Source: Glycomyces algeriensis (GTDB taxonomy: Bacteria; Actinomycetota; Actinomycetes; Mycobacteriales; Micromonosporaceae). Taken from it: a stretch of 64,000 nt of DNA. The position numbers and the translations under genes were made by a program. Under the pieces are notes generated by a model. It did not search any database and was not told the DNA's origin. It was given only the letters and a program-made list of their open reading frames with translations. The stretch lies in contig NZ_JAPZVR010000005.1 of the NCBI RefSeq assembly GCF_027622855.1, forward strand, positions 124,001 to 188,000. The letters are read 5' to 3'. Below, in pieces: positions 23,850 to 63,744 of the stretch (positions within the stretch are counted from its first letter, which is position 1; the number at the start of each line of letters is the position of its first letter).

Positions 23850-23875
23850 GCCATTTACGGCTCGCAAGCGTCGCC
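23850..23875 (-). repeat. Dispersed element, solitary copy (minus orientation)
   Basis: Read on the minus strand the site is GGCGACGCTTGCGAGCCGT followed by AAATGGC. This is the same core as the tandem arrays at 57844-58023 and 62804-62935 and the copy inside the sulfurtransferase gene (63433-63459). It sits between a terminator and the promoter region of the next gene. Confidence 0.75.
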
Positions 23876-23909
23876 GAGGAGGTCCTCGTTCCTCTTTCGC
23901 CCCGCTGAC

Positions 23910-24035
23910 CGTTTAGAGGAACCCACGAAATATCGGGGCCCTGAGCGGAACGCGGGCCCGCGCCGTTGTGCGGGCCCCACAAAGTGCGCCCGATTCGTCC
24001 CATTCACGGTTTGACAGCGTCTCGACACTGAGCGT
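23910..24035 (+). promoter_or_regulatory. Upstream region shared with the 26518 paralogue
   Basis: CGTTTAGAGGAACCC (23910-23924) and GTTGACAG (TTGACA at 24011-24016) recur, with nearly identical spacing to the ATG, upstream of the paralogous gene (26391-26405 and 26493-26498). TTGACA ends 19 bases before each ATG. Both sites also have an ACACT six bases before the ATG. The two genes were therefore duplicated with their control region, or the elements are functionally constrained. Confidence 0.5.
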
Positions 24036-26321
24036 ATGAACCGAATCGACACCCCTGCTCCCGGCGTCGAAGGCCGGCCGCCCTACCCGGGCCCTCCGCC
24101 CGCCGACGTCCCGCCCGCCGAGCGCGCCGAGCGGCGCGCCGAGCTCACCACCAAGTCCGTGCAGATCGTGCTGCTGTGCCTCGGCGGACTGCTCCTCACC
24201 GCGGGCATCATCGTCTTCACCGCCGTGGCCTGGCGCCAGCTCGGCGACGGCGGCCGCCTCACGATCCTCGCCGGGGCCACCGGCCTGCTGCTCGCAGTGC
24301 CGCCGGCGCTCACCAGGTTCCGCCTCTGGGCGACCGCCGAGACCCTGGCCGCCACCGCGACTCTCGCCCTGTGGTGCTCGGCCCTCGCCGGGTACTACCT
24401 GTACCTGCCGGGCGGCACCGGCCTCACCGCCGTCGCGGTCGCCCGCTGGACCGCGCTCGTGCTCGTCGCCGCGATCCTCTACCGGTCGGCCGCCCGCGTC
24501 AGCGCGCCCGGCTGGGCCCTGCTGCCGCTGGCCGCCACGGGCGCCGCCTTCGCCGCGTTCGGCGACGCCGTCGAGGCCGCCCTGCACATGGGGCTCATCG
24601 GCGCGGTGCTCGCCGGCGCGGCCTGGGCCGTGAAAGCGGCCCCGACCCGCCACACCGCCTCCGACCAGTGGTCGGCCCGCGTGCTCCTGGCCGCCGGGAT
24701 CATCACCGTGTTCCTCGCGGGCCTGCGGGCCGCCTTCGGCCTCGACGCCGAGCTGCTGCCCGCCGTGGCCGCCGTCGCGTGCCTGCTCGCCGCCGCCGCA
24801 TTGCTCGCTCAGACGCACGCCCACGCCGTCGGCGCGTCCCGCCCGGCGGTCCTCGTCCTCGGCCTGACCACCGGCACGCTCACCGTGACCGCCTGGATCC
24901 TGGCCTTCCGCACGGCCGAGCCGCTGCTGGCCGTGCCCGCCTTCGCGCTCGCCATCGCAGCGATCATCGCGTTCGCGTCCTGGGGCGACCGGAGCAACGA
25001 CGTCGCCTGGATCGCCCCCGCGGCGGCGTCCGCCACCGTCGTCACCGCCCTCGCCTCGCTCGGCGCGGTCGTCACCGACGCGTACGCGCTCACCGCCTAC
25101 GCCGGGGCGACCGCGCTCGCCCTCGCGGTCGCACTGTTCTTCCCGGCCCCACTGGCGCAGGCCATGCGCCGGTCGGCCGCCGCAGTCGGCGCCGTCGTCC
25201 TCGCCTGGTGCGCGGCAGTGAGCCTCACAACCTTCCCGGTCGCGTTCGGCGCCGAGCGGATCGACGCACTGCGCTGGGAGATCCCCGCGGTCGCCGCCGC
25301 GTGCGCCCTCGGGGTCACCGTCGTCCGCGCGGGCTGGAGGCGCGACTTCCTGGCCGTAGTCGCCGCCACCGCCGCGCTCGGCGCGGGCGGCCTCTGGGAC
25401 CGGCCTTGGGCGCCCGCCGCGTCCTTCGCGGTCGCCGCGATCGCGGCGCTCGTCATCGCGTTCACCTCCCCGGGAGCGGGCCGCCGCATCACCGCCTGGA
25501 TCGCCGCGCACCTGTGGATCGCCGCGACCGCACTCGCCGCCACGTACGACCGCGCGGCGAACGACGTGGACGTGCAGCCCGCGCTCATGACCGCCTCGAT
25601 CTGCGCCTCGGCCCTGCTCGCCGCCCTCCACGCCAGGCCCCCGGCGGCTGCCGTGGTGCGCACCGCCGCCCGCAACACCGCGCACGCCGTCACGATCCCC
25701 TACCTGATCTGGCTCGCCGGCGGAGCCGCCGTCGACGGCGTCCAGCTCTACGCGCCCTTGGCGTTCCTCGCCTACGCCGTCGCGCTCGCCGTCGCCGCCC
25801 TCGCGGGCGAGCGGCACCGCCTGGGCCACGTCCTCGGCTCCTGCGCCGCCGCCATCGGCGCGCAGCTGCTGCTCACGGCCTACAGCGGCGCCGACACGCT
25901 CGAGCACTACACGGCCCCGCCCGCCGTCCTGCTGCTCGGCGTCGGCTGCTGGCTCCTGCGACGCGACCCCGCGACCGACTCCTGGGCCGCACTCGCCCCC
26001 GCCCTGGTGCTCGGCTTCGGCCCTTCACTGGTCCTCGCGCTCGGCCCTGACGGCGAGCCGTGGCGGCGCATCGCCGTCGGCGCGGCGGCCCTCGCGGTGC
26101 TGCTCCTCGCCGCCAACCGGCGCTGGCAGGCCCCGCTCGTGATCGCCGCCGTGGTGCTCACCGCGCTCGCGGTCAACGAGATCGTGCTCGTGTGGAGCCT
26201 GGTGCCGAAATGGGCGCCGCTGGCGGTGGGCGGCGCGATCCTCATCGCCGCCGGAGCGACCCTCGAGCAGCGCCGCCGCGACCTCGCGCGCCTCAGCCGC
26301 TCCCTCAAGGCCATGCGGTAG
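24036..26321 (+). CDS. Large polytopic membrane protein, paralogue A
   Basis: 761 residues. A short Pro-rich cytoplasmic N-terminus (PPYPGPPPADVPP) is followed by roughly 20 hydrophobic segments from residue 40 to near the end, and a basic C-terminus LEQRRRDLARLSRSLKAMR. Signature segments LGGLLLTAGIIVFTAVAWR, RFRLWATAETLA and LALWCSALAGYYLY recur almost unchanged in the next gene. It resembles the very large hypothetical membrane proteins (DUF2157-like, SCO7-type) of streptomycetes; no transport motif was recognised. Its role is unknown. Confidence 0.8.
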   Translation: MNRIDTPAPGVEGRPPYPGPPPADVPPAERAERRAELTTKSVQIVLLCLGGLLLTAGIIVFTAVAWRQLGDGGRLTILAGATGLLLAVPPALTRFRLWATAETLAATATLALWCSALAGYYLYLPGGTGLTAVAVARWTALVLVAAILYRSAARVSAPGWALLPLAATGAAFAAFGDAVEAALHMGLIGAVLAGAAWAVKAAPTRHTASDQWSARVLLAAGIITVFLAGLRAAFGLDAELLPAVAAVACLLAAAALLAQTHAHAVGASRPAVLVLGLTTGTLTVTAWILAFRTAEPLLAVPAFALAIAAIIAFASWGDRSNDVAWIAPAAASATVVTALASLGAVVTDAYALTAYAGATALALAVALFFPAPLAQAMRRSAAAVGAVVLAWCAAVSLTTFPVAFGAERIDALRWEIPAVAAACALGVTVVRAGWRRDFLAVVAATAALGAGGLWDRPWAPAASFAVAAIAALVIAFTSPGAGRRITAWIAAHLWIAATALAATYDRAANDVDVQPALMTASICASALLAALHARPPAAAVVRTAARNTAHAVTIPYLIWLAGGAAVDGVQLYAPLAFLAYAVALAVAALAGERHRLGHVLGSCAAAIGAQLLLTAYSGADTLEHYTAPPAVLLLGVGCWLLRRDPATDSWAALAPALVLGFGPSLVLALGPDGEPWRRIAVGAAALAVLLLAANRRWQAPLVIAAVVLTALAVNEIVLVWSLVPKWAPLAVGGAILIAAGATLEQRRRDLARLSRSLKAMR

Positions 26322-26341
26322 GCAAGCACTGCAATGCGAAC

Positions 26342-26368
26342 GGGCCCCGCGTCGACGGCGCGGGGCCC
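26342..26368 (+). terminator. Hairpin after paralogue A
   Basis: GGGCCCCGCG / CGCGGGGCCC with a seven-base loop, 21 bases after the stop. Confidence 0.7.
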
Positions 26369-26390
26369 GCGGCCGTCGCCGGGGGCGACC

Positions 26391-26517
26391 CGTTTAGAGG
26401 AATCCTGACAGAATGCACACGGAAGCGGGGCCCGCACGCAGTGCCCGTTGTGGCAGGTCTACAAACCGCGTCCGTTTTGCCCGAATCCGTAGTTGACAGG
26501 ACCAGCACACTGTGCAC
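26391..26517 (+). promoter_or_regulatory. Upstream region shared with the 24036 paralogue
   Basis: CGTTTAGAGGAATCC (26391-26405) and TTGACA (26493-26498) at the same distances from the ATG (127 and 19-20 bases) as upstream of paralogue A. Both upstreams also contain related GGGCCCGC, TTGTG and CCCGAWTC blocks. Confidence 0.5.
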
Positions 26518-29145
26518 ATGAACACGTACAACTGCCCGCGCTGCGGCAGCGCCTCCACGATCGAGCGGTGCCCGGCGTGCGGACGCGGGCCCGAACCGCT
26601 CCTCGCGCGGCTCGGCGAACTCGACGCCGTCCTCGCCGCGATGCCCGCGACCCTCCAGAGCCGCGCGGCCGTCGAGGCCGAACGCGTCGGCGTGCTCAAA
26701 GGGCTCACCGAGCTAGCCGCCCGCTACCTCGCCGAGGCCGAGCAGCAGGCCCGCAGCACCCCGACCCCGCAGGCCGCGCAGTCGCCGCAGGCTCCAGTCG
26801 TGCTGCCGACCCCGCCGGGCGCAGCCGCCGCGACCGGACCCGCCACGCCGCCCAGCGGCGCCCCGCAGGTCCCTCCGGGCCCGATGCGGCCGTACCCGCA
26901 GCCGCACACCCCGCCCGGCGGCGCCTACGGGCCGCCGCGCGAACGCGGCGAGGTCGGCTCCAAGACCGTCCAGACCGTGCTCCTGAGCCTCGGCGGACTC
27001 CTCGTCGCCGCCGCGCTCATCATCTTCACCGCCGTCGCCTGGCGCAACATGGGCAACAGCGGCCGGGCCGGCGTCCTCGGCGGCGTCACCCTCCTGCTCC
27101 TCGCGGTCCCCTTCGCGTTCAAGCGCTTCCGCCTCTGGGCCACCGCCGAGACCTTCGCCGCCCTCGCCGCCCTCGCCCTCTGGTGCACCACCCTCGCCGG
27201 GTACTACCTGTACCGGCCGCCGGGCGCGACCTTCGGACCCGAGACCGTCGCCGCCTGGACCGCCGGCGTCCTCGTCGTGCTCGCCGCCTACCGGGCCCTC
27301 GCCCGCCTCACCGCGACCAGCTGGGCCATGCTGCCCCTCGCCGCGATCGGCCTGGCCTACGCCGCCGCGAGCGACCTCGCCCTCGCCGTGACCCTCATGC
27401 TCGCCCTCGCCCTCGCCCTCGGCGCCACCGCCTGGATCACCGCGAAGCTCCCGAGCCACTACGCGCGCTCCGACGTGTGGGCCTCCCGGTTCCTCACCTG
27501 CGCCGCCGTCATCGCCGCCTGCTCCGCCGGCCTGCGCGCGGCCTTCGGCCTCGCCGACCCCGTCGTCCCGCCCGTCGCCGCCGCCGTGGCACTCCTGGCC
27601 GCCGCCAACCTCATCGGCGTCCACCTCGCCCGCCGCCTCGGCGTCTCCCTCACCACAATGCTGGTCGCCGCCTCCGCGAGCGGCTCACTCGTGCTCTGCG
27701 CGTGGGTGCTCGCCGTCCGGGCCGGCACGCCCGAACTCGTGATCCCCTCGCTCGCGCTGACCGCCGCCTCCCTCCTCCCCTTCGCCCTCCTCAACAGCCG
27801 CAAGACCACCTGGCCCCTGGCCTCGGCCGCGACGGCCGGGCTCGCCTCCCTCGCCGCGTTCGCCATCGTCACCTTCGACGCGCCCGACCTGAGCGCGTAC
27901 TTCGTCGCGTTCCTCGCCGCCCGCCTCATCGCGCCGGTGGTCGCGGCACCGCTCGGCAAGCCGCTGCGCATCGCGTCCTACCTCGTCGGCGGCGGCACCG
28001 CCGTCGTCGCCGCCCTCACCGCGATCGCCGGGATCTACCCCCTCATCGCCTACGAACCGGGCTGGACCATCAACCTCGAGGTCCCGATCGTCCTGGCCGC
28101 CCTGGCTGTCACGGCGGTCCTGCTGCCCAGGCGGTTCCGCGTCAACGCCGCCGCGCTCGCCGTCAGCCTCGCCATCGAATCGACCGCGGTCCTGATCTGG
28201 AACGAGGACCCGTCGCGGTTCGACGCGCTCCCCACGCTCACCCTGATGCTCTGCGCCCTCATCAGCCTCACCTCCGCGATCGCCTCGGGGACGGTCGCCG
28301 GACGGTGCACCGGCTGGTCCACGCTCACCCTGTGGGCCCTGCTCACCGCGCTCGCGGCGGGCAACAGCGACACCATGGCCCCCGCCGATGACAACTGGAT
28401 CCCCTTCTGGCTCACCGTCACCGCCGCAGCAATGCTCGTCATCGCCGCCGGCGCCCCGCGCCGCACCCGGGCCGACCGCGTGCTCGCCGCGGTCCTCGCC
28501 CACATCCTGGCCGGCATCTCCGCGGTCGTCGGCCTCATCGCGGCGGTCTCGTTCGGTTCCGAAGGCCTGCAACTGTTCCCCGCCGCCCAGGTCGGGGTCT
28601 ACACGCTGGCGCTCATCGGAGTCGCGATCATGGCGCCGGTGCGCACGTGGGGCTACGTGATCGCGGCCCTGTGCACCGGCACCGTGGCCTGGTGGCTGTG
28701 GCTGGCCGCGCTGGAGGTCGACATCCTCGAGTGCTTCACCGCGCCGCCCGCCGCGATCGTGTTCTTCATCGGCCTCTGGCGCCTCGAGCGGCGCCCGGAG
28801 ACCGGATCCTGGTCCACGCTGGCGCTGCCGATCCTCGTCGGCATCGGCCCGAGCCTGGTCCTGGCCCTCAACGACGGCGACGAACTGCGCCGCGTCGGCG
28901 TCGGCGCCGCCGCGATCGCGGTGATCATCGCCGGGCTCGTGCGCCGCTGGCAGGCGCCGCTCGTGCTCGGCTCGATCGCACTGGCGGTCCTGGTCGTCAA
29001 CGAGCTGCTGCTGCTCCGCGGCAGCATCCCGGTGTGGGTCCCGCCCGCCATCGGCGGCGCGATCCTCATCGCCGCCGGCGCCACCTTCGAGCAGCGCCGC
29101 CGCGACCTCCGAAGGATCCGCGAAGGCCTGAAGGCCATGCGGTAG
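26518..29145 (+). CDS. Large polytopic membrane protein with N-terminal zinc ribbon, paralogue B
   Basis: 875 residues from ATG 26518; a GTG two codons earlier is possible. The N-terminus is a double-CxxC zinc ribbon (NCPRCGSASTIERCPACGRG), followed by a helical segment and a Pro/Gln-rich linker (about 80-145). The membrane part, from about residue 155, has some 20 helices and parallels paralogue A, including LGGLLVAAALIIFTAVAWR and the shared C-terminal tail FEQRRRDLRRIREGLKAMR. A tandem duplication that kept the upstream region is likely; only this copy carries the zinc ribbon. Function unknown. Confidence 0.82.
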   Translation: MNTYNCPRCGSASTIERCPACGRGPEPLLARLGELDAVLAAMPATLQSRAAVEAERVGVLKGLTELAARYLAEAEQQARSTPTPQAAQSPQAPVVLPTPPGAAAATGPATPPSGAPQVPPGPMRPYPQPHTPPGGAYGPPRERGEVGSKTVQTVLLSLGGLLVAAALIIFTAVAWRNMGNSGRAGVLGGVTLLLLAVPFAFKRFRLWATAETFAALAALALWCTTLAGYYLYRPPGATFGPETVAAWTAGVLVVLAAYRALARLTATSWAMLPLAAIGLAYAAASDLALAVTLMLALALALGATAWITAKLPSHYARSDVWASRFLTCAAVIAACSAGLRAAFGLADPVVPPVAAAVALLAAANLIGVHLARRLGVSLTTMLVAASASGSLVLCAWVLAVRAGTPELVIPSLALTAASLLPFALLNSRKTTWPLASAATAGLASLAAFAIVTFDAPDLSAYFVAFLAARLIAPVVAAPLGKPLRIASYLVGGGTAVVAALTAIAGIYPLIAYEPGWTINLEVPIVLAALAVTAVLLPRRFRVNAAALAVSLAIESTAVLIWNEDPSRFDALPTLTLMLCALISLTSAIASGTVAGRCTGWSTLTLWALLTALAAGNSDTMAPADDNWIPFWLTVTAAAMLVIAAGAPRRTRADRVLAAVLAHILAGISAVVGLIAAVSFGSEGLQLFPAAQVGVYTLALIGVAIMAPVRTWGYVIAALCTGTVAWWLWLAALEVDILECFTAPPAAIVFFIGLWRLERRPETGSWSTLALPILVGIGPSLVLALNDGDELRRVGVGAAAIAVIIAGLVRRWQAPLVLGSIALAVLVVNELLLLRGSIPVWVPPAIGGAILIAAGATFEQRRRDLRRIREGLKAMR

Positions 29146-29157
29146 CGCCGATGCGAG

Positions 29158-29181
29158 CGGCCGGTCCCGCGGGGCCGGCCG
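29158..29181 (+). terminator. GC-rich hairpin after paralogue B
   Basis: Near-complete palindrome CGGCCGG ... CCGGCCG with inner CCCGCGGG, 12 bases after the stop. Confidence 0.6.
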
Positions 29182-29383
29182 TTCCGCGCACTACCATCCC
29201 CAGCCCCCACCCACCCCGGGGAAGACAGCGCCCATCCTCCCGCCCGGGTACGACAAGAACCGGCCCCCGCCGAGGCAATGTCAGTCGAACGGGTGAAGCG
29301 GGCACGGCGCGGCCCGGACGAGCGATGCCAGCGCGACACGAGTCGTCAAGCGGCCGATCGCGACCGGCCGCCTGACTCCGGTG

Positions 29384-31291
29384 CTAGTGGTGGTGGTGGT
29401 GCCCTTCGTCTTCACCGCGGCGGTGGACCTCGGCCGCGAGGCGCTCGGCGATCACCGTCGGGGTCAGGCCGAGGTCGGCGAGGAGCTGCGCGCGGGTGCC
29501 GTGCTGGTGCCAGCCGCGCTCGACGGCGAAGTCCACGAGCGGCGTCTCGTCCCCCGAGTCGCGCAGCGACTGCGCGAGCGCGTCGCCGAAGCCACCGGTG
29601 CGGATGCCGTCCTCCAGCGTCGCCACCAGCGGGTACTGGCCCGCGAGCTTCACGAGCGCGTCGGGCACCGGCGAGATCCAGCGCGGGTCCACGACCGTGG
29701 CGCGGATCCCTTGCTCCGCAAGCAGTCCGGCGACCTCCAGCGCGGTGGCCGCGAACGAGCCGCAGGCGACGATGAGCAGCTCGTCGTCCTCGTGCTTGAC
29801 GAGCAGGTCGAGTCCTTCGTGGACTTCGACCGCCTCGATGTCGTCCTCGGGGATGGCCCCCGTGGGGAAGCGCAGCATCGTCGGGCCGTCGTCGACCGAG
29901 AGCGCCTCGGCGAACTCCTCGCGCAGCGACGCCGCGTCGCGCGGCGCGGCGATGCGCAGGCCCGGCACCACGCGGAAGATCGAGGTGTCCCAGATGCCGT
30001 AGTGGCTCGGCCCGTCCGGGCCGGTGATCCCGGCGCGGTCGAGCACGAACGTCACCGGCAGCTTGTGCATGGCGACGTCGAGCACGGTCTGGTCGAACGC
30101 GCGGTTCATGAACGTGGAGTAGACCGCCACGACCGGGTGCATGCCGTTCATCGCCAGGCCCGCAGCGGAAGTGACCGCGTGCTGCTCGGCGATGCCGACG
30201 TCGAAGACCCGCTCGGGGTGGCGCTTCATGAGCTTGTCGACACCGGTGGGGCCGGGCATCGCGGCGGTGATCGCCACGACCTCGGGCCGCAGGTTCGCCT
30301 GCGCCACCAGCTCGTCGGCGAACACGCCGGTCCAGCGGCGCTTGGAGGCGTTGAGCGGCTCGCCGGTGATCGGGTCGAACGCGGCCGAGGGCGCGTGCAT
30401 CTGCTCGGCCTCGTCGGCGCGGGCGGGGGCCCAACCCTGGCCCTTCTGGGTGAGGGCGTGGACGATCACGGGCCCGCCGAAGCGCTTGGCCCGGTCGAGG
30501 GCCTCGGTGAGCTCGGCGAGGTCGTGGCCGTCGACGGGCCCCACGTACTTGATGCCGAGGTCAGAGAACATGCCCTGCGGCGCAAGAGCGTCCTTGAGGC
30601 CGGTCTTGGCGGCGTGGAGGCCCTGGAAGGCGGCGCGGCCGAACACGGGGATGCGCTCGACGACCTCCTGGATCTTCTTCAGCGTCGGCTCGTAGCCGGG
30701 GTTGAGCCGCAGGCCGGCGAGGCGCTTGGCGAGGCCGCCGACGGTCGGCGCGTAGGAGCGGCCGTTGTCGTTGACGACGATCACGAGCTTGAGGTCGTCG
30801 CGGGCGGCGATGTTGTTGAGCGCCTCCCAGCACATGCCGCCGGTGAGCGCGCCGTCGCCGACGAGGGCCACCACGTGGCGGTCGGAACCGGTGAGCGCGT
30901 GGGCCTTCGCGAGGCCGTCGGCGTACGAGAGGGAGGTCGAGGCGTGCGAGTTCTCGACGAGGTCGTGCGGGGACTCGGCCTGGCTCGGGTAGCCGGTGAG
31001 GCCGCCGCGCCCGCGCAGGCCGTCGAACTTCCCGGCGCGGCCCGTCAGTGCCTTGTGGACGTACGACTGGTGGCCGGTGTCGAAGACGATCTGGTCGTGC
31101 GGGGAGTCGAAGACCCGGTGGATCGCCATCGTCAGCTCGACGACGCCGAGGTTGGGGCCGATGTGGCCGCCGGTCCTGGCGACCGCGGCGATGAGGAATT
31201 CGCGGAGCTCCTCGGCGAGCTGCGGGAGCTCGTCCTCGCCCAGCGACTTGAAATCGGCCAGCCTGCCGATGCCGGACAGCAGCGGGCCCAT
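29384..31291 (-). CDS. dxs: 1-deoxy-D-xylulose-5-phosphate synthase
   Basis: ThDP-dependent first step of the MEP isoprenoid pathway (pyruvate + glyceraldehyde 3-phosphate). 635 residues from ATG 31291, chosen because [17 protein letters not shown] aligns with typical actinomycete Dxs N-termini and has a GAGG upstream; ATG 31315 is the alternative. Motifs: [31 protein letters not shown] (ThDP binding) and [17 protein letters not shown] (catalytic Glu). The C-terminus ends in a natural run of five histidines (GHHHHH). Confidence 0.96.
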
Positions 31292-31609
31292 CTCGCCCTC
31301 GAGGTGCGTACTCATAAGGGGGAAGTCTATCGGTGGCGCGGTGCGGGCGGTAGCTGCGCGACTGCGGCTGGGACCTGTCTCATGGGCGCGCACCGGGGGT
31401 GATCCGGGCGGCAGGGAGGGGGAAGCGGCATCACGGTTCGCGCGATCGGACGTGACGGATGCGCCCGGCGTTCGATCCCGGTCGCGTGCACGGGAAATTC
31501 ATCCGGAAGAGGGACAGGAGGCCCGACTGTCGGAAAGCAGTCACTCCCCGAAAGGGACACGCCGGGGTAAAACCGGTCCGGGTCGTGATCTAAATGTGAT
31601 CATCCCAAC
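31292..31609. other. dxs / deaminase-like divergent spacer
   Basis: 318 bases without a convincing gene. Near the right end, GTGATC occurs twice (31583 and 31596) around a possible -10 TAAATG, 19 bases before the deaminase-like start. A GC-rich hairpin or a strong promoter for dxs was not found. Confidence 0.4.
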
Positions 31610-32733: not shown

Positions 32734-32782
32734 TTCACCGGTTCCCGCCCCCAACCGGAACCCCCTGCTGCGAAAGGACGAG

Positions 32783-37413: not shown

Positions 37414-37576
37414 CGCGAGCGCCGGGGGCGCCCCCGGGGGGGGGGGGCGGGGGGGGCGGGCCCGGGGGGGGGGGGGGGGCCCCCGCGCCCCGCGCACACC
37501 CTCACCCGCGGCGCGGGCCCCGCGGGCCCCCCGGCCGCCCCCCCCCCCCCCCGGGGGGGGGCCCCCGGCGCTCGCG
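37414..37576. repeat. Nearly pure G/C tract enclosed by inverted repeats
   Basis: Arms CGCGAGCGCCGGGGGC (37414-37429) and GCCCCCGGCGCTCGCG (37561-37576) pair perfectly and enclose about 130 bases of long G runs then long C runs. It begins 14 bases after the lyase stop, so it may be a terminator hairpin whose loop could not be sequenced correctly. Exact length and content should be distrusted. Confidence 0.6.
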
Positions 37577-41902: not shown

Positions 41903-42119
41903 CACGCCAGGGGACAGGGGTTCGCGGCGGGCCGGGGCGGCCCGGCGGCGGCGCGAGTCACTGCTTACGTCGCGCGCCCCCCACCCCCGCGCCCCCCCCC
42001 CCCCCCCCCCCCCCGGGGGGGGGGCCCCCCGCCCCCCCCCCCCCCCCCCACGCCAGGGTACAGGGGTTCGCGGCGGGCCGGGACGGCCCTGCGGCGGCGC
42101 GAGTCACTGCTTACGTCGC
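41903..42119. repeat. 71-base direct repeats flanking a homopolymer C/G tract
   Basis: Copies at 41903-41973 and 42049-42119 run from CACGCCAGGG to CTGCTTACGTCGC and differ at only a few bases. Between them are 75 bases that are almost only C, with one G run. This lies between the divergently placed 5' end of the RNA methyltransferase and the 3' end of the APC permease. No gene is present. Confidence 0.7.
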
Positions 42120-52737: not shown

Positions 52738-53082
52738 CGTTTTCCACTCCCATTGGTTTCTCTTGCGGCTCCGGAACCGAGCGCGGCGGGTTGCCGCTGG
52801 AATGTTCGGGTGACACAGCGGCCCGGCTCGGGTCCGGTTCGGTTCCGTCCCTGCAGGCGGCGTACCTTACCGCGTGCAGTCCATTCCTATACACGATGCC
52901 CCCCGGTTTTTCATCCCTATTGTGGCGAGAAACACTTCTGTGTCGAGGGCATCGAGGTGCCGCCTCTCGCCCACGGAGACGACCCGCGCACGATAGCCTT
53001 TCGGATGGCAACGTTTGCGGGCCGTCGGCTCGTCTAAGTGCAGACATTCGTTGGCACTTTTTGGAGTTTCGGGGAGGCAGCC

Positions 53083-55941: not shown

Positions 55942-55959
55942 CGCACACAGGCTTGAGAC

Positions 55960-55987
55960 GGGCCCGAGCGGATTTCCGCTCGGGCCC
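55960..55987 (+). terminator. Terminator hairpin after DUF7455 gene
   Basis: GGGCCCGAGCGG-ATTT-CCGCTCGGGCCC, perfect stem, 18 bases after the stop. Confidence 0.8.
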
Positions 55988-56018
55988 CGATTCGTTCTCG
56001 GGACAATTGAATCTGCAA

Positions 56019-56058
56019 AACGAGAATGGGACCGCCCGCGGGCGGTCCCGTTCTCGTT
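56019..56058 (-). terminator. 40-base palindromic terminator 3' of the helicase gene
   Basis: AACGAGAA-T-GGGACCGCCC pairs with GGGCGGTCCC-G-TTCTCGTT with a single T/G mismatch and an almost absent loop. It lies 21 bases 3' of the minus-strand helicase stop. Confidence 0.75.
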
Positions 56059-56078
56059 GCCGTATTCGGCACCGCCGC

Positions 56079-57791
56079 CTATAGCGAGCGGATCACCGCG
56101 ATCCGCTCCTCCAACTGCTCGATCGTCGCCTGCGCACTCGGCGGCCCGCCGCACTTGGAGCGCAGCATCGCGTGGATCTTGCCGTGCGGCTCGTTCGTCG
56201 CGAACGAGCGCGCCCCCACCAGCGCGTTCAACTGCTTGCGCAGCTTCAACCGCTTCTGCGCGTTGGTCATCGCGGGCTCGGCCGCCGGCCGCTCCACGGT
56301 CTCGGTGCGGGTCCCGGACTTCTGCTTCGCCATCTGCTCGCGCTGGCGCTTCTGCAGGAGCAGATGCACCTGCTCCTGGGTCAGAAGGCCCGGAAGGCCC
56401 AGGTACTCCTGCTCCTCGGCACTCCCGGCCTCCACGGGGAGGCCGAACGAGCCGCCGTCGAAGATCACCTGGTCGAGCTCCGCGTTCGACTCGAGGGTCT
56501 CGCGCTGGCCGCCGAGTTCGGTGCCCTCGTTGAGGACCCGCTGCGCCTGCTCCAGCAGCAGCTCCGGGTCCTCGTCCTGCGACTTGGGCTTGATGACGTG
56601 GTCGCGGTCGGCCTCGAGGTTCTCCGCGAGGCTCAGCAGCGGGATCACACTCGGCAGGAACACCGAGGCGGTCTCGCCGGGGCGCCGCGAACGCACGAAG
56701 CGGCCGATGGCCTGCGCGAAGTACAGCGGCGTGTGCGCGTTCGTGGCGTAGACGCCGACCGCCAAGCGCGGGATGTCAACACCCTCGGACACCATGCGGA
56801 CGGCCACGAGCCATTCCTCATTGGAGTCGGCGAACTTGGCGATCTTGTCCGAGGAGCCCGCGTCGTCGGAGAGGACGATCGCAGCGCTCTTGCCGGTGAC
56901 CCGCTTGAGGATGCCCGCGTAGGCGCGGGCGCTGTTCTGGTCCGAGGCGATGATGAGCCCGCCCGCGTCGGGGATGCCCGCCGCGCGCAGCGACGAGAGC
57001 CGCCGGTCGGCGGCCCTGATGACCTGCTTGATCCACTCGCCTTCGGGGTCGAGCGCGGTGCGCCACGCCTGGCTCGTGAGGTCCTTCGTGAGCGGCTGCC
57101 CGAGCCGCACCGCGAGCTCGTCCCCCGCGCTCGTGCGCCACTTCGCCTGACCGGAGTAGGCCATGAACATGACCGGGCGCACGACGCCGTCCGCGAGCGC
57201 GTCCCGGTATCCGTAGAGCGCGTCGGCCCGCGAGCGCTTGACGCCGTCGGCCTCCTCGTCGTACTCGACGAACGGGATCGGGTTGTCGTCGCTGCGGAAC
57301 GGGGTGCCGGTGAGGCACAGGCGGCGCTCGGCCTCGTCGAAGGCGGTCTGGACGCCCTCGCCCCAGGTGCGGGCGTCGCCGGCGTGGTGGATCTCGTCGA
57401 GGATGACGAGGGTGCGGCGCGAGAGCGTGCGGCGGCGGTGGACGGCCGGGTCGGCGCCGATCTGCGCGTAGGTGACGACGACGCCGTGGAAGTCGGCGGC
57501 ACTGTGGACGGACGCGTTGCGGAACGCCGGGTCGAGCTGGATGCCGAACCGGGCGGCCGCGCCGGACCACTGGGTCTTCAGGTGCTCGGTGGGGGCGACG
57601 ACGGTGACGGTGTCGACGGTGCCGTCGGCGAGCAGGTCGTAGGCGATGCGCAGGGCGAACGTGGTCTTGCCGGCCCCGGGCGTTGCGACGGCGAGGAAGT
57701 CCCGCGATTGACCCCGGTGGTAGGCGACCATGGCCTTGCGCTGCCAGACCCGAAGCGAGGGAAGCATTTCGGGTGGGGCGGCCGGGATCAT
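56079..57791 (-). CDS. Superfamily 2 DEAD/DEAH-type helicase
   Basis: 570 residues. Motif I is VATPGAGKTTFALRIAYDL, motif II LVILDEIHHAG (DEIH), motif III LTGTPFRSD, and motif VI lies in YFAQAIGRFVRSRRPGE. The C-terminal portion (about 440-570) is charged and helical, with KRQREQMAKQKSG. Resembles the XPB/RadD-like restriction-type helicases that lie beside hrdB in streptomycetes. An ATP-dependent translocase on DNA or RNA; the exact role is unknown. Confidence 0.9.
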   Translation of the reverse strand: MIPAAPPEMLPSLRVWQRKAMVAYHRGQSRDFLAVATPGAGKTTFALRIAYDLLADGTVDTVTVVAPTEHLKTQWSGAAARFGIQLDPAFRNASVHSAADFHGVVVTYAQIGADPAVHRRRTLSRRTLVILDEIHHAGDARTWGEGVQTAFDEAERRLCLTGTPFRSDDNPIPFVEYDEEADGVKRSRADALYGYRDALADGVVRPVMFMAYSGQAKWRTSAGDELAVRLGQPLTKDLTSQAWRTALDPEGEWIKQVIRAADRRLSSLRAAGIPDAGGLIIASDQNSARAYAGILKRVTGKSAAIVLSDDAGSSDKIAKFADSNEEWLVAVRMVSEGVDIPRLAVGVYATNAHTPLYFAQAIGRFVRSRRPGETASVFLPSVIPLLSLAENLEADRDHVIKPKSQDEDPELLLEQAQRVLNEGTELGGQRETLESNAELDQVIFDGGSFGLPVEAGSAEEQEYLGLPGLLTQEQVHLLLQKRQREQMAKQKSGTRTETVERPAAEPAMTNAQKRLKLRKQLNALVGARSFATNEPHGKIHAMLRSKCGGPPSAQATIEQLEERIAVIRSL

Positions 57792-57843
57792 GCGGGCTCC
57801 TCTCGGACGATGGCGGACCGGTTGATTTTAGGCCGCGAGGTAA

Positions 57844-58023
57844 GTCACGGTGCCCGCTTGCCAGCCGTAAATTAGCAATGTCACGGCGCCCGCTTGCCAG
57901 CCGTAAATTAGCAATGTCACGGTGCCCGCTTGCCGACCGCGAATTGGCAAAGTCACGGCGCCCTCCCGCGAGCCGCGCAATGGCTCGGTCACGATGCCCG
58001 CTTACAGGCCGCGAATCGACAGG
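57844..58023 (+). repeat. 36-base tandem array, five units, of the dispersed element
   Basis: Units start at 57844, 57880, 57916, 57952 and 57988, each opening GTCACGGYGCCC (fifth GTCACGATGCCC); a partial sixth runs to about 58040. The first two differ by one base; similarity decays rightwards. The core GCTTGCCAGCCGT-AAATTAGC is shared with the other loci of the element. The array lies between the dtd stop and the helicase start and contains no gene. Confidence 0.9.
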
Positions 58024-58046
58024 GCCACGGTGACCGCGTCGCGCGA

Positions 58047-58469
58047 TCAGCGCTCGAGCAGGATCGTATTGGGGCCGACGTTGACGCTGCGCACGAGCAT
58101 CATCGCGCCGAACACGCCGGTCTCGACATGGGCGCCGAGGCCGCGGAGGTGGGCGGCGACGGCCTCGACCAGGGGCTCGGCGACGGGCCCGGGCGCGGCG
58201 CCGTTCCAGGAGGGGCGCCGACCCTTGCGCGTGTCGGCGTACAGGGTGAACTGGCTGACCAGCAGGATCGGGGCGTCCACATCGGATGCCGACAGTTCGT
58301 CCGGCAAGATCCGCAGGCTCCAGATCTTCTCGGCGATCCACGCGACTTCGGCGGGACCATCCGTGTGGGTGACGCCGAGGAGGACGAGGAGGCCTTCGCC
58401 GATCGAGCCGACGCTCGCCCCGTCGACCGTGACTTCCGCTTCGCTGACGGTCTGCACGACTGCTTTCAT
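58047..58469 (-). CDS. dtd: D-aminoacyl-tRNA deacylase
   Basis: Removes D-amino acids (and Gly from tRNA-Ala) mischarged on tRNA. 140 residues from ATG 58469 ([17 protein letters not shown]). The active-site motif [17 protein letters not shown] is intact. The cross-subunit Gly-cisPro motif is present as NVGPNT, a variant of the common NDGPVT. The start is 42 bases from the divergent DUF3099 gene. Confidence 0.93.
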
Positions 58470-58510
58470 GCCCCAGATCCTGCCGCACCGGCCAGGCGTA
58501 GGCTCGAAGG

Positions 58511-58834
58511 GTGGCAAGGCGTGAGAAGGCGACCAGCATCACGGATGCGTCGATGTCCCTCGAAGAGGAGCGGCGGTACCGCACGATCCGGTACGTCGTG
58601 ATGATGTCGATCAGGGCGGTGCTGGTGATCGTGCTCGGCATCCTGGTGATGGCCGAGGCGCCGCTGCTGTGGCTCTGGCTGGCGATCGGCGTGGTCGGGA
58701 TGGCAGTGCTGCCCTGGCTGGCGGTCCTGCTGGCGAACGACCGCCTCGTGCGCAAGCCGGGCGTGTTCACGCGGCACCAGCGGCGGGCGCCCACCGTCGA
58801 AGCGCCCGAGCACCGCATGATCGATTCGGAATAA
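58511..58834 (+). CDS. DUF3099 membrane protein
   Basis: 107 residues from GTG 58511. [23 protein letters not shown] leads into two membrane helices with a short PLLWLW hairpin, and a basic/acidic tail follows. The N-terminal motif and two-helix layout are those of DUF3099. TAGGCT lies six bases before the GTG, fitting a leaderless transcript. Function unknown. Confidence 0.88.
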
Positions 58835-58925
58835 TCGCCCCGGACACCCTCCGCGAAGTTTGCGGGTCGTAGATTCGTAGAGCAAGATTGACGGGATCTT
58901 GCGCGCTAATGAGGAGTGAGTTGCA

Positions 58926-59222
58926 GTGAGCGAACTTCCCACCACCGGAGGCTCCGACGGCGGAGTCGGCGGTTCCGGCTCGAACGGAGCCGGTTCAACC
59001 CTGCTCGAAGAGCAGACGAAGACCAACCCGAACTACGTGTTCGAGGACGGCGACGACGAGCGCTTCTCGCACTACGTGCCGAAGGACAAGCTCATGGCCG
59101 CGATGGTCGACGGCATCCCGGTGAAGGCCCTGTGCGGGAAGATGTGGGTCCCCACCCGCGACCCCGATCGCTTCCCGGTCTGCCAGAACTGCAAGGACAT
59201 CTACGCGAAGATGAAGGGCTGA
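58926..59222 (+). CDS. DUF3039 protein
   Basis: 98 residues from GTG 58926, with GAGGAG nine bases upstream. A Gly/Ser-rich start is followed by YVFEDGDDERFSHYVPKDKL and a zinc-like pair ALCGKMWVPTRDPDRFPVCQNC, diagnostic of DUF3039. It is preceded by the dyad AAGAT-N7-ATCTT near 58883. Conserved small actinobacterial protein of unknown function. Confidence 0.88.
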   Translation: MSELPTTGGSDGGVGGSGSNGAGSTLLEEQTKTNPNYVFEDGDDERFSHYVPKDKLMAAMVDGIPVKALCGKMWVPTRDPDRFPVCQNCKDIYAKMKG

Positions 59223-59292
59223 GGCTGCAGCGCGCCTCTCACCTTTGCGGAGATCCGCGGTGTGACCGGGCCCTGCCTGCTATAACGCACGG

Positions 59293-59925
59293 GTGGAGCC
59301 TAGTGAATTCGACCCGACCTCGCTGATGCTGGTCGCCGAGCTCGTCGGCACCGCGGTCTTCGCCGCCTCCGGCGCGAGCGCCGCGGTCGGCAAGCGGCTG
59401 GACCTGTTCGGCGTGGTCGTCATCGGCGTGCTCTGCGCCCTCGGCGGCGGCGCGCTCCGCGACGTGCTCATCGACGCGAAGCCGCTGCTGCTCACCGACT
59501 GGCGCTACCCCCTCGTGGCCCTCGTCGCCTCCCTCTTCGTGTTCTGGTTCCACCCGGCGCTCTCGCGCATGCGCACCACGATGCTGGTGCTCGACGCCGC
59601 CGGGCTGGCCCTGTTCACCGTGGTCGGGACCCAGAAGGGGCTCGATTTCGGTTTCGCCGTCTACGCGGCTTGCATCGTCGGAGTACTCTCCGGAATCGGC
59701 GGGGGCATCCTGCGGGACGTCCTCAGCCAGGAGATCCCGGCGGTGCTCCGCGAGGACTTCTACGCGATGGCCGCGGCGATCGGCGCGGTGATCGTGGCGG
59801 TCGGGGCCCGCTGGGAGTCGATGATCGGGCACTGGACGCTCGCGCTGACGGCCATCGCGGTCATCTTCGTTGTACGGCTGGTGGCCATCAAGTATCGGTG
59901 GGAAGCCCCCAAACCGAAAATCTGA
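59293..59925 (+). CDS. TRIC-type cation channel family membrane protein (UPF0126)
   Basis: 210 residues, seven predicted helices in two repeats. The conserved glycine motifs are [13 protein letters not shown]-like (here [12 protein letters not shown]) and [11 protein letters not shown]. Bacterial TRIC homologues are K+-permeable trimeric channels; this gives a second cation-related gene besides ceoBC. GTG 59293 is preceded by TATAAC exactly six bases away and lacks a Shine-Dalgarno, so it is probably leaderless. Confidence 0.9.
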
Positions 59926-60073
59926 TCGTGTCTCCCGGGTTCGTGCCACCCTTCGCCCTGGGGGATCTGAAACGTCGAAATCCGCTGCAAGCTGGTACTC
60001 CGAAGCCCGGTGCCCACCGGGTATGGCGCGGATCAACCCACGCGCCGAGGGTCTGCAGCGAAAGGCGAATTCG

Positions 60074-61042
60074 ATGGCACCTGTCGACAGCATCCGCCAG
60101 CGTCCGGCGAGGCGACCGGCGCAGCGCGCGACCGAATACTCCGGCGACCCCGTTCGCGCCTATCTGAACGGCATCGGCAAGCACCGGCTGCTCACCGCCT
60201 CCGAGGAGGTCGAGTGCGCCAAGGCCATCGAGGCCGGCCTCATGGCCGAGTGCCGCATCAGCGAGGTCACCGACCCCGACTTCCGCTCGGACCTGGCCCG
60301 CATCGCGGCCGAGGGCCGCGCGGCCAAGCAGCGCATGCTCGAGTCGAACCTGCGCCTCGTGGTCTCCGTCGCCAAGCGCTACTCCGGCGCCGGGCTGAGC
60401 CTGCTCGACCTCATCCAGGAGGGCAACCTCGGCCTCATCCGCGCCGTCGAGAAGTTCGACTACCAGAAGGGGTACAAGTTCTCCACGTACGCCACCTGGT
60501 GGATCCGGCAGGCCATCAACCGCGCCGTCACCGACCAGTCCCGCACGATCCGCGTCCCCGCGCACACCGTGGACCAGATCAAGCGGATGAACCGGGTCCG
60601 TCAGGACCTCATGGTCGAACTGGGCCGCGAGCCCCGCTACGAGGAGATCGCCGCGGAGCTCGACGTCACCCCCGGCAAGGTCCTCGAGCTCATGTCCTAC
60701 GACCGCGAGCCGGTGAGCCTGGACCAGACCGTGGGCGAGGACGACTCGACCGCGCTGGGCGACCTCGTCGCGCACCTCCCCCGCGAGCACGGCAGCGACG
60801 ACGCCGTGTCATACGCGCTGCTGCGCCGCCACATCGCGAACGTGCTGGCCTCGCTGCCCGAACGGGAACAAACCGTCCTGCGCCTGCGTTTCGGCATTGA
60901 CGACGGCCGTCAGCGCACCCTCGAAGAGGTCTCCGCGGACTTCGGGCTCTCGCGCGAGCGGGTCCGCCAGATCGAGAAGAACGCGCTGCACCGCCTGCGC
61001 CAGCCCGACTACGCCGGGCGCCTCGCCGAGTATGTGGCGTGA
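60074..61042 (+). CDS. sigB: Group 2 sigma factor (SigB/HrdD-like)
   Basis: 322 residues from ATG 60074 (AAAGG eight bases upstream). Region 1.2 reads [16 protein letters not shown]; region 2.4 [17 protein letters not shown] is nearly identical to SigA; region 4.2 is [20 protein letters not shown]. It lacks the Lys-rich N-terminal extension of SigA. Its place between sigA and ideR matches mycobacterial SigB, a general stress/stationary-phase factor. The recognised promoters should overlap those of SigA. Confidence 0.94.
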
Positions 61043-61222
61043 TCGACCTTCACGGCCCTGTCCTCCGTACCGCTTTGGGGTGTGAGCGCCCCGTACGTCC
61101 GGATGGCTGATGGGCGGAGCGTCCTTCACGACGTATACCATTGGTGGTGACAGGGGGTCTGGCGGCTACTCGACCCACCCCGCTCGGTGCCCTGCGGGCG
61201 GACAAAGTGAAGGAACGAAGCT

Positions 61223-61909
61223 GTGACCACGGACCTCGTCGACACCACTGAGATGTACCTGCGCACGATCCTCGAACTCGAGGAGGAGGGCGTTCCGGCG
61301 CTGCGCGCCCGGATCGCCGAGCGCCTGGAGCAGAGCGGCCCGACGGTCTCGCAGACCGTGGGCCGGATGCAGCGCCACGGCCTGCTCAACGTCAAGAGCG
61401 ACCGCCACCTGGAGCTCACCGAGGAGGGCCGCCGGCAGGCGGTCGCGGTGATGCGCAAGCACCGGCTCGCCGAGCGCCTCCTGGTCGACGTCATCGGCAT
61501 GTCCTACGTGGAGGCCCATGACGAGGCCTGCAAGTGGGAGCACGTCATGAGCGACTCGGTGGAGAAGCGCGTCTACGAGCTGCTCGAGCACCCCACCCGC
61601 TCGCCTTACGGCAACGCGATCCCCGGGCTCTCGGAGCTCGACGCCTCGGCCGTGGCCGAAGGCCGCGAGGCCGACGAGCGCCCGCTGAGCGTCGTCTCCC
61701 CCGGTTCCAAGGTGCGCGTGACGCGCCTGTGCGAATCGGCCCAGACCCACCCCGAGCTCCTGGCCTCCCTGCACGAGGCCGGCGTCGACCCCGGTGCCGA
61801 GGTCGCGATCGACCGCCTCGACGGCGAGGTCGCGGTGACCACCGGTTCGGACACGATCCGGCTCTCGACCGACGACGCGGCGAAGATCTTCGCCACTCCC
61901 GCCGAGTAG
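61223..61909 (+). CDS. ideR: Iron-dependent regulator IdeR (DtxR family)
   Basis: 228 residues from GTG 61223 (AAGGAACG upstream). A winged helix (about 1-70, ERLEQSGPTVSQTVGRMQ recognition helix) is followed by a dimerisation/metal domain and a C-terminal SH3-like FeoA domain (about 150-226). The metal ligands match DtxR in order: Met in TTEMYLRT, His/Glu in RKHRLAERLL, His in EAHDEAC, and Cys-x2-Glu-His in CKWEHVMSD. Represses siderophore and iron-uptake genes when Fe2+ is bound. No iron box was seen in this window. Confidence 0.95.
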   Translation: MTTDLVDTTEMYLRTILELEEEGVPALRARIAERLEQSGPTVSQTVGRMQRHGLLNVKSDRHLELTEEGRRQAVAVMRKHRLAERLLVDVIGMSYVEAHDEACKWEHVMSDSVEKRVYELLEHPTRSPYGNAIPGLSELDASAVAEGREADERPLSVVSPGSKVRVTRLCESAQTHPELLASLHEAGVDPGAEVAIDRLDGEVAVTTGSDTIRLSTDDAAKIFATPAE

Positions 61910-61957
61910 TTCACCTTCGAGACGCTTGCGCGCCTTGGAAGTCCACGCTTTCGTGTC

Positions 61958-61986
61958 TTGACCCCGGTACTACCGGGGAGTAGTCT
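61958..61986 (+). promoter_or_regulatory. Orphan promoter downstream of ideR
   Basis: TTGACC (61958-61963), 17-base spacer, TAGTCT (61981-61986); the best -35/-10 pair in this region, with no coding frame downstream. The spacer contains the dyad CCCCGGTA-C-TACCGGGG. Confidence 0.7.
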
Positions 61987-61996
61987 GAGCAAAGCG

Positions 61997-62012
61997 TTGC
62001 AAACGTTTCCAA
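61997..62012. promoter_or_regulatory. LacI/GalR-type operator
   Basis: TTGCAAACGTTTCCAA, a dyad with one mismatch centred on AACGTT, the classical LacI-family core. Placed at about +5 to +20 of the predicted orphan transcript, ideal for repression. Confidence 0.65.
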
Positions 62013-62127
62013 TTCATCCCACACGGGCTGGTTTTCGGAAACCGCTGCGCCCGACAACCGCCCCCCCCACCTGAGCGCCCTCCTCGCTCCCCCGGCGAGG
62101 GGGGCGCTCACTATGCGGCGCAAGGAG

Positions 62128-62159
62128 AAGGCCGCCCGGATCGTTCCGGGCGGCCTTTT
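62128..62159. terminator. Intrinsic terminator, probably bidirectional
   Basis: AAGGCCGCCCGGA-TCGT-TCCGGGCGGCCTTTT. It lies 14 bases 3' of the minus-strand lipoprotein stop and at the end of the candidate small RNA. Confidence 0.85.
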
Positions 62160-62173
62160 CTGCGTCTGCGGCG

Positions 62174-62788
62174 CTAGCCGGCCTCGGCCTGCGCGGCGGC
62201 GATGCCCTTGGCGAGTTCGGTGAAGCCCCCGACGAGCTCGTTCACCACGGCCGGGTCCGTGTCCACCGGTGTGGTGTACCGCATCTCGAAGATCGTGCCG
62301 CCCTCGTACCAGCCCATCTCCAGGGCCGGTCCCGCGCCGGTGTCCTCGGTGTGGACGATCCAGTAGGCGGCCTCGCCGAGCCCGTCGATCGCCTCGGTGC
62401 CGTCGGCGAGCTCCTCCTCGTAGACCTCGACCTTGGCCTCGGTGCCGATCACGAACAGCGTCAGGTCCGGGTAGGCGGCCTCGCCGGTCTGGACGGCGCA
62501 GGTGAGCTGGGCCGGCGCCTCCTCGCCCTCGGCGGCCTCGCCGGGCCCGCCCGAGGCGAAGCGGAAGTCCTCGCCCGTCACGGAGTTCAAGGTCGCGGAG
62601 TCGATGAGCGGGCACGCGCCCGCGGCGTCGGCCAGGTCGAGCTCGACCGGCTCGGGCGGGGCCGACGCCTCGGTCGACGAGTTCGCGGCGGAGCCCTCCG
62701 GCTCCTCGCCCGAGGGCGAGTCGTCGTCACTGCAGGCGGCCAGCGCCATGAGGAACGCGGCGGGGATCGCGATCAGCGCGCGCTTCAT
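62174..62788 (-). CDS. Secreted lipoprotein, DUF3558-like
   Basis: 204 residues from ATG 62788. Signal peptide with lipobox ALAAC (Cys19), then a Ser/Glu-rich linker and a globular domain containing ACPLIDSATLNSVTGEDFRF, LTCAVQTGEAAYPDLTLFV and YWIVHTEDTG. The two Cys and the overall pattern resemble the actinobacterial DUF3558 lipoproteins; function unknown. The start overlaps the sulfurtransferase stop in ATGA, so the two are translationally coupled. Confidence 0.8.
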   Translation of the reverse strand: MKRALIAIPAAFLMALAACSDDDSPSGEEPEGSAANSSTEASAPPEPVELDLADAAGACPLIDSATLNSVTGEDFRFASGGPGEAAEGEEAPAQLTCAVQTGEAAYPDLTLFVIGTEAKVEVYEEELADGTEAIDGLGEAAYWIVHTEDTGAGPALEMGWYEGGTIFEMRYTTPVDTDPAVVNELVGGFTELAKGIAAAQAEAG

Positions 62789-63744
62789 CGGGTCTCCCCC
62801 TTCGGCGACGCTTGCGAGCCGATAATTGGCTGCTGTGGCGATGCTTGCGAGCCGTCGATTGGCTGCTGTGGCGATGCTTGCGAGCCGTCGATCGGCTCCA
62901 GTGGCGACGTTTGCGCGCCGTCGTCTAGCGCGGTCGCCACGGCGCCGCCGCGCGAGACCCAGTCGCTCCAGGAGCCGATGTACACCGGCGGTGTGGGCAG
63001 GCCCGCGGCGGTGACGGCGAGCGCGGTGCGCGCCGCGCCGACGCCGGAGCCGCAGTAGTAGGCCGCTTCCGGGTGGGACGCATAGCGTTCGCGCAGCCGG
63101 TCGGTGTCCGCGAGGTCGTCCTCGCCGAGGAAGAGGTTGATGGCGCCGGGCACGTGGCCGGCGACGGGGTCGATCGGTTCCGTCTCGCCGCGGTAGCGCT
63201 CGGGGGCGCGCACGTCGACCAGTTCGCGGGTCTCGGCCCATTCGGCGGCGGACTCGGCGTCGAGCACGGGGAGGTGCCCGGGGCTGACGTGGACGTTGCC
63301 GGGCTTGGGGTCCGCGGTCTGCGCCTCGAGCGGGAGTCCGGCACCGGTCCAGGCCTTGATGCCGCCTTGGAGGACCTGGACCTGCTCGATCCCGGCCCAG
63401 CGGAGGGTCCACCAAGTACGGGCGGCGGCCAAGCTAATTGACGGCTCGCCCGCGTCGCCGAAGGGGCCGTCGCCGTCGTCGTAGACGAGCACATGTGAGT
63501 CGTCGTCGATGCCGGCGGCGCGCAGGACCGCTTGCAGCGCTTCGGGTTCGGGGAGCGGGTGGCGTCCGCCGAGGGTCTCGACGGGGCCGCACACGTCCCG
63601 GTCGAAGTCGAGCCGGACCGCGCCGGGCAGGTGCCCTTCGGCGTAGTCGGCGTCCCTCGAGGGTCCCCCGAGCGTCCAGCGGACGTCGAGCCGGACCGAT
63701 CCGTGCAGTTCAGCGGCCGCCTCGGCGCCGATCAATGGCCTCAT
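62785..63744 (-). CDS. sseA: Rhodanese-type sulfurtransferase (SseA-like) with repeat-derived extensions
   Basis: 319 residues, two rhodanese domains (about 1-140 and 155-270). The active-site loop is YYCGSGVGAA with the persulfide Cys, as in thiosulfate/3-mercaptopyruvate sulfurtransferases. Two features are odd. Residues about 94-104 (PFGDAGEPSIS) are encoded by a copy of the dispersed element, apparently a 33-base in-frame insertion after YDDGDG. The last ~45 residues are an 11-residue repeat (SQASPQQPIDG) encoded by a four-unit 33-base array. The gene follows the deaminase-fold gene by nine bases and overlaps the lipoprotein gene. Confidence 0.9.
   Translation of the reverse strand: MRPLIGAEAAAELHGSVRLDVRWTLGGPSRDADYAEGHLPGAVRLDFDRDVCGPVETLGGRHPLPEPEALQAVLRAAGIDDDSHVLVYDDGDGPFGDAGEPSISLAAARTWWTLRWAGIEQVQVLQGGIKAWTGAGLPLEAQTADPKPGNVHVSPGHLPVLDAESAAEWAETRELVDVRAPERYRGETEPIDPVAGHVPGAINLFLGEDDLADTDRLRERYASHPEAAYYCGSGVGAARTALAVTAAGLPTPPVYIGSWSDWVSRGGAVATALDDGAQTSPLEPIDGSQASPQQPIDGSQASPQQPIIGSQASPKGETR
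62804..62935 (+). repeat. 33-base tandem array (four units) in the sulfurtransferase 3' end
   Basis: Units start at 62804, 62837, 62870 and 62903, each opening GGCGAYGCTTGCGAGCCGT (fourth more diverged: GGCGACGTTTGCGCGCCGT) and continuing to GGCTGCTGT-type ends. Plus-strand orientation of the element, opposite to the host gene. A multiple of three, so the host frame continues through it. Confidence 0.9.
63433..63459 (-). repeat. Dispersed element copy inside sseA (minus orientation)
   Basis: On the minus strand, GGCGACGCGGGCGAGCCGT followed by CAATTAGC: two changes from the consensus core. It encodes part of the apparent 11-residue insertion in the first rhodanese domain. Confidence 0.75.

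Follow-up and report, generated by a model that had tools for sequence, protein, structure and literature searches.

A very small repeat in the window and in its genome

The stretch of Glycomyces algeriensis DNA analysed here, 64,000 nucleotides of a contig and called the window throughout, carries copies of a very small repeat of about 33 bases, which lie singly or in head-to-tail arrays on both strands (Table 1). A search with its 17-base core GGCGACGCTTGCGAGCC, allowing up to three mismatches, finds eight matches in the window, a number reached by none of 100 shuffles, and a weight matrix trained on 180 copies of the same family gives ten hits scoring 8 or more, one of them, at 53004 (score 8.9), marginal, against none in the reversed window. 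The single copies on the minus strand and the arrays on the plus strand lie where an original prediction had placed them. The four loci that it assigned to one element also stand, but the array at 57844 belongs to a separate subfamily, B, which differs from family A in its 36-base unit GCTTGCCAGCC (best units GTCACGGYGCCCGCTTGCCAGCCGTAAATTAGCAAT) and is missed by the weight matrix at a cut-off of 18. A fifth, decayed copy suspected near 61921 did not survive scrutiny: the position scores below 8, and in an alignment of five relatives, four of which are of similar length while G099 aligns poorly, there is no 33-base difference. The original prediction had instead overlooked a decayed family-A copy on the plus strand at 58849.

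Table 1. Copies of the repeat in the window and the genes that carry or border them
Feature	Position	Strand	Remarks
Single family-A copy, about 32-33 bases	23846..23878	-	Intergenic; weight-matrix score 41.9, match 23849-23878
Five 36-base units of subfamily B, arrayed head to tail	57844..58023	+	Between dtd and a helicase gene; Tandem Repeats Finder (TRF) period 36
dtd (D-aminoacyl-tRNA deacylase) gene	58047..58469	-	B array directly 3'; G131 orthologue has PF02580
Decayed family-A copy	58849..58881	+	Weight-matrix score 24.5, match 58849-58878
Sulfurtransferase gene (stx), rhodanese domain	62785..63735	-	PF00581, E 1.4e-24; site of an in-frame copy and of a C-terminal array
Array of four 33-base family-A units	62801..62933	+	Overlaps the predicted stx gene at its 3' end; TRF period 33
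Single family-A copy, 33-base in-frame insertion (11 residues) in stx	63433..63465	-	Match 63433-63462

The genome from which the window is taken (G000; 5.59 Mb in 34 contigs) holds far more copies than the window does. The 23-base pattern GGCGANGCTTGCGAGCCGTNNAT, with up to three mismatches, occurs 133 times in it and not once in the reversed sequence, which served as the control for pattern counts, and a 13-base core, searched with at most one mismatch, is matched 137 times, as against 14 times in the reversed genome. The repeat was at first thought to be possibly strain-specific, which it is not: at the same threshold the 23-base pattern is found in all 22 Glycomyces genomes of our genus set (G. 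algeriensis included), at 12 to 153 copies per genome, with 0 to 3 in the reversed controls. In a family set of 121 genomes, 113 of them from outside the genus, 12 genomes match with up to two mismatches, including all eight sampled members of the genus, and the matches beyond it are 13 in G027, three in G038 and one each in G010 and G089. An exact form matches 92 stretches of a named genome collection; the 80 matches listed are all from Glycomyces. No viral contig matches an exact 21-base pattern of the element, a two-unit query gives no blastn match to plasmids or phages at E 0.01, and no Rfam family is found in the window. A published description of this Glycomyces repeat was not found among the papers listed, at the level of titles and abstract openings and with a single genus-specific look.

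Most single copies stand at separate sites: of the 171 that are unique, 151 lie between flanks less than 60% alike. Tandem growth, which had also been proposed, is supported by the arrays with periods of 33 and 36 bases: out of 74 pairs of same-strand neighbours within 400 bases, 41 are spaced by exactly 33 and 63 by 32 to 35 (subfamily B being below the cut-off here), and neighbours no more than 45 bases apart lie on the same strand in 63 cases and on opposite strands in two.

Empty sites, ends and target

Many sites in syntenic stretches of relatives display a clean size difference of 33 bases, and with these clean empty sites the proposal of a dispersed mini-repeat that transposes has held up. 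A search for empty sites, which admitted only size differences near 33-36 bases per unit, returned 64 flank groups with an empty counterpart, some of which share one occupied locus (for example L166, L074, L165, L156 and L312). In the best pair of each group the difference is exactly 33 bases in 33 groups, 36 in six, 132, 99 or 72 in five, and some other value in 20. Sixteen stringent rows represent 15 loci and, as one stx site accounts for two rows and copies of a larger repeat described below for two more, about 14 independent events.

The loci of the window illustrate the pattern. At the copy at 23846, the occupied G131 and the empty G128 differ by 33 bases, and the corresponding sequence in G131 sits within a terminator-like stem-loop. 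At the decayed copy at 58849, G126 is shorter by 33 bases; G131, G128, G108 and G099 differ by just 5-9. Judged by eye in orthologous stretches of the 22 genus genomes, the B array has five units in G. algeriensis, four in G099 and one or none in the others, and at the site of the array at 62801 alignment with other genus genomes reveals either no unit, a single one (G108) or a decayed version (G131). The copy at 63433 in stx is present, among 22 rows, in G. algeriensis and G128, decayed to 24 bases in G099 and absent in 19. A FastTree tree of two window loci groups G. algeriensis with G131 and G108 (support 0.91 and 0.98) and not with G128, which is weakly placed with G126 (0.42-0.50); G099 is distant. 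Outside the window, an array in a gene for a NuoN-like protein makes the sequence 132 bases longer than that of each of four relatives.

Read in the orientation of the element, the consensus is CNNY-CTCGGCGAMGCTTGCGAGCCGTNAATNNGC-ACR-GY; among the 151 single copies with unlike flanks it is sharp from C at position -4 to Y at position 34 and falls to background beyond. Its ends, CTCGGCGA and NNGCACRG, are asymmetric, and the body, CTCGGCGA...NNGC, measures about 30 bases. In the empty sites of the 16 stringent rows, position -4 is C in 11, position +33 is G in 14 and position +34 is a pyrimidine in 15, so these are bases of the target, which is a loose C-NNN-G-Y. An empty site has three bases between the target bases, and an occupied one has a triplet, the 30-base body and another triplet. 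The junction triplets resemble the triplet of the empty site slightly more often than expected by chance (left, 20 of 45 alike, p 0.03; right, 18 of 45, p 0.04), which fits a 3-base stagger with triplets of mixed origin, by duplication or from the donor. Two simpler joints appear less likely: a plain target duplication gives no contiguous signal in the offset table of single copies, and the two-sided identity profiles do not overlap; these profiles also disfavour a plain blunt insertion in one register.

The original prediction had the repeat fold as a small hairpin. Its inner part, CGC-TT-GCG, is not conserved: at position 8 of the element, 54% of 151 copies carry A and 31% carry C. An outer CGGC/GCCG stem of 4 bp with an 11-base loop is present and shows some covariation, the pair 4-18 being G-C in 139 of the 151 copies, A-T in five and otherwise in seven. 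The flanks of some copies can also pair with one another. Of the 151 flank pairs, 21 form a stem of -30 kcal/mol or lower, against 5.3 in permutations (largest permuted value 12); with the threshold at -20 there is little excess (42% against 38%). Hairpin-loop targeting holds for a minority of copies and was rejected as a general rule, and at empty sites C-NNN-G does not, in our reading, usually form the tip of a longer stem.

Gene context and in-frame insertions

Copies lie both between and within genes, as had been noted for the window and as gene calls and protein alignments now bear out. Among 297 copies (exact 70-base duplicates removed; orthologues and single array units counted separately), 220 lie between predicted genes, 22 across a gene end and 55 inside a gene; the predicted genes, called by a home-made codon-usage script, cover 87% of the G. 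algeriensis contig studied. The 97 copies from G. algeriensis divide into 27 and 27 in co-directional spacers, 13 in divergent and 11 in convergent spacers, one at an edge, 14 genic and four overlapping, and from these even spacer counts no preference for a strand or for the promoter side is seen. Over the three reading phases the 55 genic copies are distributed as 18, 15 and 5 in antisense and as 12, 5 and 0 in sense orientation.

Pfam supports ten of the affected genes, which encode a NuoN-like antiporter subunit, FAD synthetase/riboflavin kinase (RibF), Dus, a DEAD helicase, Dtd, MutM, arginine deiminase, GcvP, a phosphogluconolactonase-type protein and the rhodanese. Because 33 and 36 are multiples of three, genic insertions can keep the frame and survive as inserts of 11 or 12 residues. 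Insert-free relatives align cleanly with five such proteins: the NuoN-like protein, where the 132 bases add 44 residues, the G131 orthologue of Dtd, where a 36-base insertion adds 12, and MutM, the sulfurtransferase and allantoate amidohydrolase, each with 11 more. In allantoate amidohydrolase the in-frame inserts stand at two different positions in two species (L074, L110). For RibF, DusB, arginine deiminase and the phosphogluconolactonase, the protein alignments made contain no insert-free relative.

Search for a mobilising enzyme

A linked transposase or RAYT (REP-associated tyrosine transposase, where REP is repetitive extragenic palindromic sequence) gene had been proposed as a further check, and here the outcome was negative. 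PF01797, the Y1/RAYT family, has no hit in the G. algeriensis genome, none in any of the four highest-copy genomes, of which it is one, and none in G131, G128, G108, G011 or G126, the six genomes together spanning 78-153 copies. Hits occur in seven of the 22 genus genomes and do not track copy number: they are strong in the low-copy G122 (20 copies) and G134 (18), are also present in G121, G133 and G129 (64 copies), and number one each in G085 and G069 (92 and 90 copies; fifth and sixth in rank), that of G069 being weak and partial. The 768 proteins encoded beside copies were clustered, and inspection of the 25 clusters listed revealed, by eye, no transposase and no gene family whose recurrence beside copies would point to a source gene. 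The largest clusters, of 12 proteins each, appear by eye to be a transport permease and an ABC-F-type ATPase, and the others are orthologues of shared sites.

Larger repeats that contain the element

A repeat of about 200 bases resembling a MITE (miniature inverted-repeat transposable element), with inverted ends AGGGCCTGTCC...GGACAGGCCCT, matches the G. algeriensis genome, over all or part of its length, at a few tens of places, for example at G000:C1:229664-229876 (L028:1378-1590). The 33-base element is nested in many of its copies, and others are shorter by about 33 bases, as judged from alignment ranges. By the same kind of alignment range, at least ten G. algeriensis copies of the element lie inside this larger repeat; when nine occupied paralogues are aligned with two that lack the element, a 33-column gap appears.

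Discussion

Very probably the repeat is a mobile element of very small size, non-autonomous and shared by the genus Glycomyces. Comparison of the sequences shows its dispersal, clean insertion and net size, its target preference, its arrays of the same period and its in-frame insertions in genes. On this reading, a body of about 30 bases inserts at the loose target C-NNN-G-Y, the net gain of 33 bases being the body plus an extra triplet. An enzyme acting in trans might recognise the asymmetric body, perhaps through the CGGC/GCCG stem with its conserved GCTTGCGA loop, and make a 3-base staggered joint at the target that leaves a triplet of mixed target and donor origin on each side. The arrays may grow head to tail, either by repeated insertion beside an existing copy or by unequal exchange between units. 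Most copies would survive between genes, and some may have spread passively after landing in the 200-base MITE.

Several points weigh against this reading. Neither a transposase nor a linked source gene was found, in a search that was narrow, and the support for movement is wholly comparative. Twenty of the 64 flank groups differ by sizes other than 33, 36 or array multiples; these may be due to nearby indels. The junction triplets fit the empty site only slightly above chance, so that the proposed joining chemistry is tentative. In 15 of the 55 genic cases a stop codon stands nearby in the printed translation, so that some of these copies belong to the ends of genes or to questionable gene predictions. 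On the tree, the stx insertion has a patchy distribution (G. algeriensis, G128, G099) that needs loss, recurrent insertion or recombination.

Mobilisation in trans by a RAYT, with the repeat as a REP or as a REPIN, the paired form of REPs, is very unlikely. According to the parts of PMC3733652 concerned with them, REPs are 20-40 bases long and reach high copy numbers; the Glycomyces element falls in this range, has about 100 copies, is mostly intergenic and forms a small stem-loop whose CGGC/GCCG stem covaries. The copies that sit in hairpin loops recall the REPs inserted in palindromes that Di Nocera et al. report in a passage of the same paper, and Y1 hits do exist in the genus, also in G085, G069 and G129. 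Against this reading, G. algeriensis and G131, G128, G108, G011 and G126 have no PF01797 hit, and strong hits are found in the low-copy G122 and G134. Neighbouring copies are head-to-tail and do not form the inverted doublets of REPINs and BIMEs (bacterial interspersed mosaic elements), there is no GTAG or CGTC tag, and the stem has 4 bp and not the 8-9 bp, with a short loop, given for CGTC-family REPs in the section of PMC3733652 on that family. The CCTC-like start of the element recalls a variant in that section, but stem and tail do not fit a REP. The REP-like label first given to the repeat is not supported on these grounds. MITEs are several-fold larger than the element; it shares with them its non-autonomous nature, its dispersal and its clean insertion sites, but terminal inverted repeats are absent from the consensus of the 151 copies and a plain target duplication is not apparent, so the MITE-like label is not supported either. 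As defining features of REPs and MITEs are lacking, we file it under neither.

The sharp consensus and the regular 33-base arrays could also belong to a selected, immobile site for a binding or regulatory protein, akin to an iteron. We hold this to be slightly less probable still, since the orthologous sites in relatives are cleanly empty, no promoter or strand preference is seen in G. algeriensis, copies lie inside unrelated housekeeping genes and 151 of 171 single copies have unlike flanks. An ordinary minisatellite, growing by slippage duplication and leaving the singles as remnants, would account for the number of array units that varies between species, but not for the same sequence at unrelated sites on both strands, nor for single 33-base insertions facing empty sites without any unit; its chances are exceedingly small. 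Equally improbable is passive spread solely as cargo of the 200-base MITE or of other larger repeats: although copies nested in that MITE speak for it, most singles have unlike flanks and 33-base insertions occur elsewhere without it, so that hitchhiking explains a minority at most.

The closest analogies lie elsewhere. Elhai et al. reportedly described very small repeats (small dispersed repeats, SDRs) of cyanobacteria in 2008, which are very small, dispersed and precisely inserted at a short target; to our knowledge no transposase has been assigned to them. PMC4390886, in the statement where it cites them, counts SDRs such as SDR5 among very small mobile repeated elements. In its overall behaviour the Glycomyces element is closest to these SDRs, being very small and dispersed with 33-base insertions at C-NNN-G-Y (the SDR definition is second-hand). 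Compared by description, it differs in phylum and target, probably in sequence, and in the prominence of its in-frame genic inserts and 33-base arrays. Its genic insertions appear closest to those of the Rickettsia palindromic elements (RPEs), which, in the portions of PMC10969869 and PMC3733652 that treat them, insert in frame in unrelated genes and add a peptide. The Glycomyces element likewise lies in frame in the genes for the NuoN-like protein, MutM, Dtd, the sulfurtransferase and allantoate amidohydrolase, but it is 33 bases long, barely palindromic (a 4-bp stem) and arranged in head-to-tail arrays. RPEs are palindromic and, in the families treated in that part of PMC10969869, about 150 bases long, and RPE-4/6 are CGTC-tagged REPs.

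Whether the element stands for a class of its own is, to our mind, a question with about equal chances on either side. Such a class of ultra-small mobile DNA would have an asymmetric body of about 30 bases, a net size of 33 and an enzyme so far undescribed, whose joint at C-NNN-G-Y is staggered by 3 bases and leaves no clean duplication, and its length would make it a natural system of in-frame peptide insertion, adding 11-residue units to housekeeping proteins across the genus. At about 30 bases, a mobile element comes close to the smallest size that can move. The genus offers 22 genomes, many pairs of empty and occupied sites, a target motif and a sharp consensus, so that the enzyme can be searched for by presence and absence and tested. 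Housekeeping proteins with in-frame inserts are, in addition, a natural experiment on the tolerance of added peptides.

Additional observations

In L270, positions of about 7987-8290 and 10793-10858 have many short matches among Glycomyces genomes; the former partly overlaps a 33-base copy at 8219-8248, and the remainder may be other dispersed repeats. The window contains long G-rich and C-rich near-homopolymer runs at 37424-37492 and 41971-42014, possibly artefacts of assembly or sequencing, and similar G-runs adjoin copies of the element in L039 and L051. Two-copy tandem repeats of about 125 and about 123 bases lie at 9671-9913 and 10737-10973 of the window.
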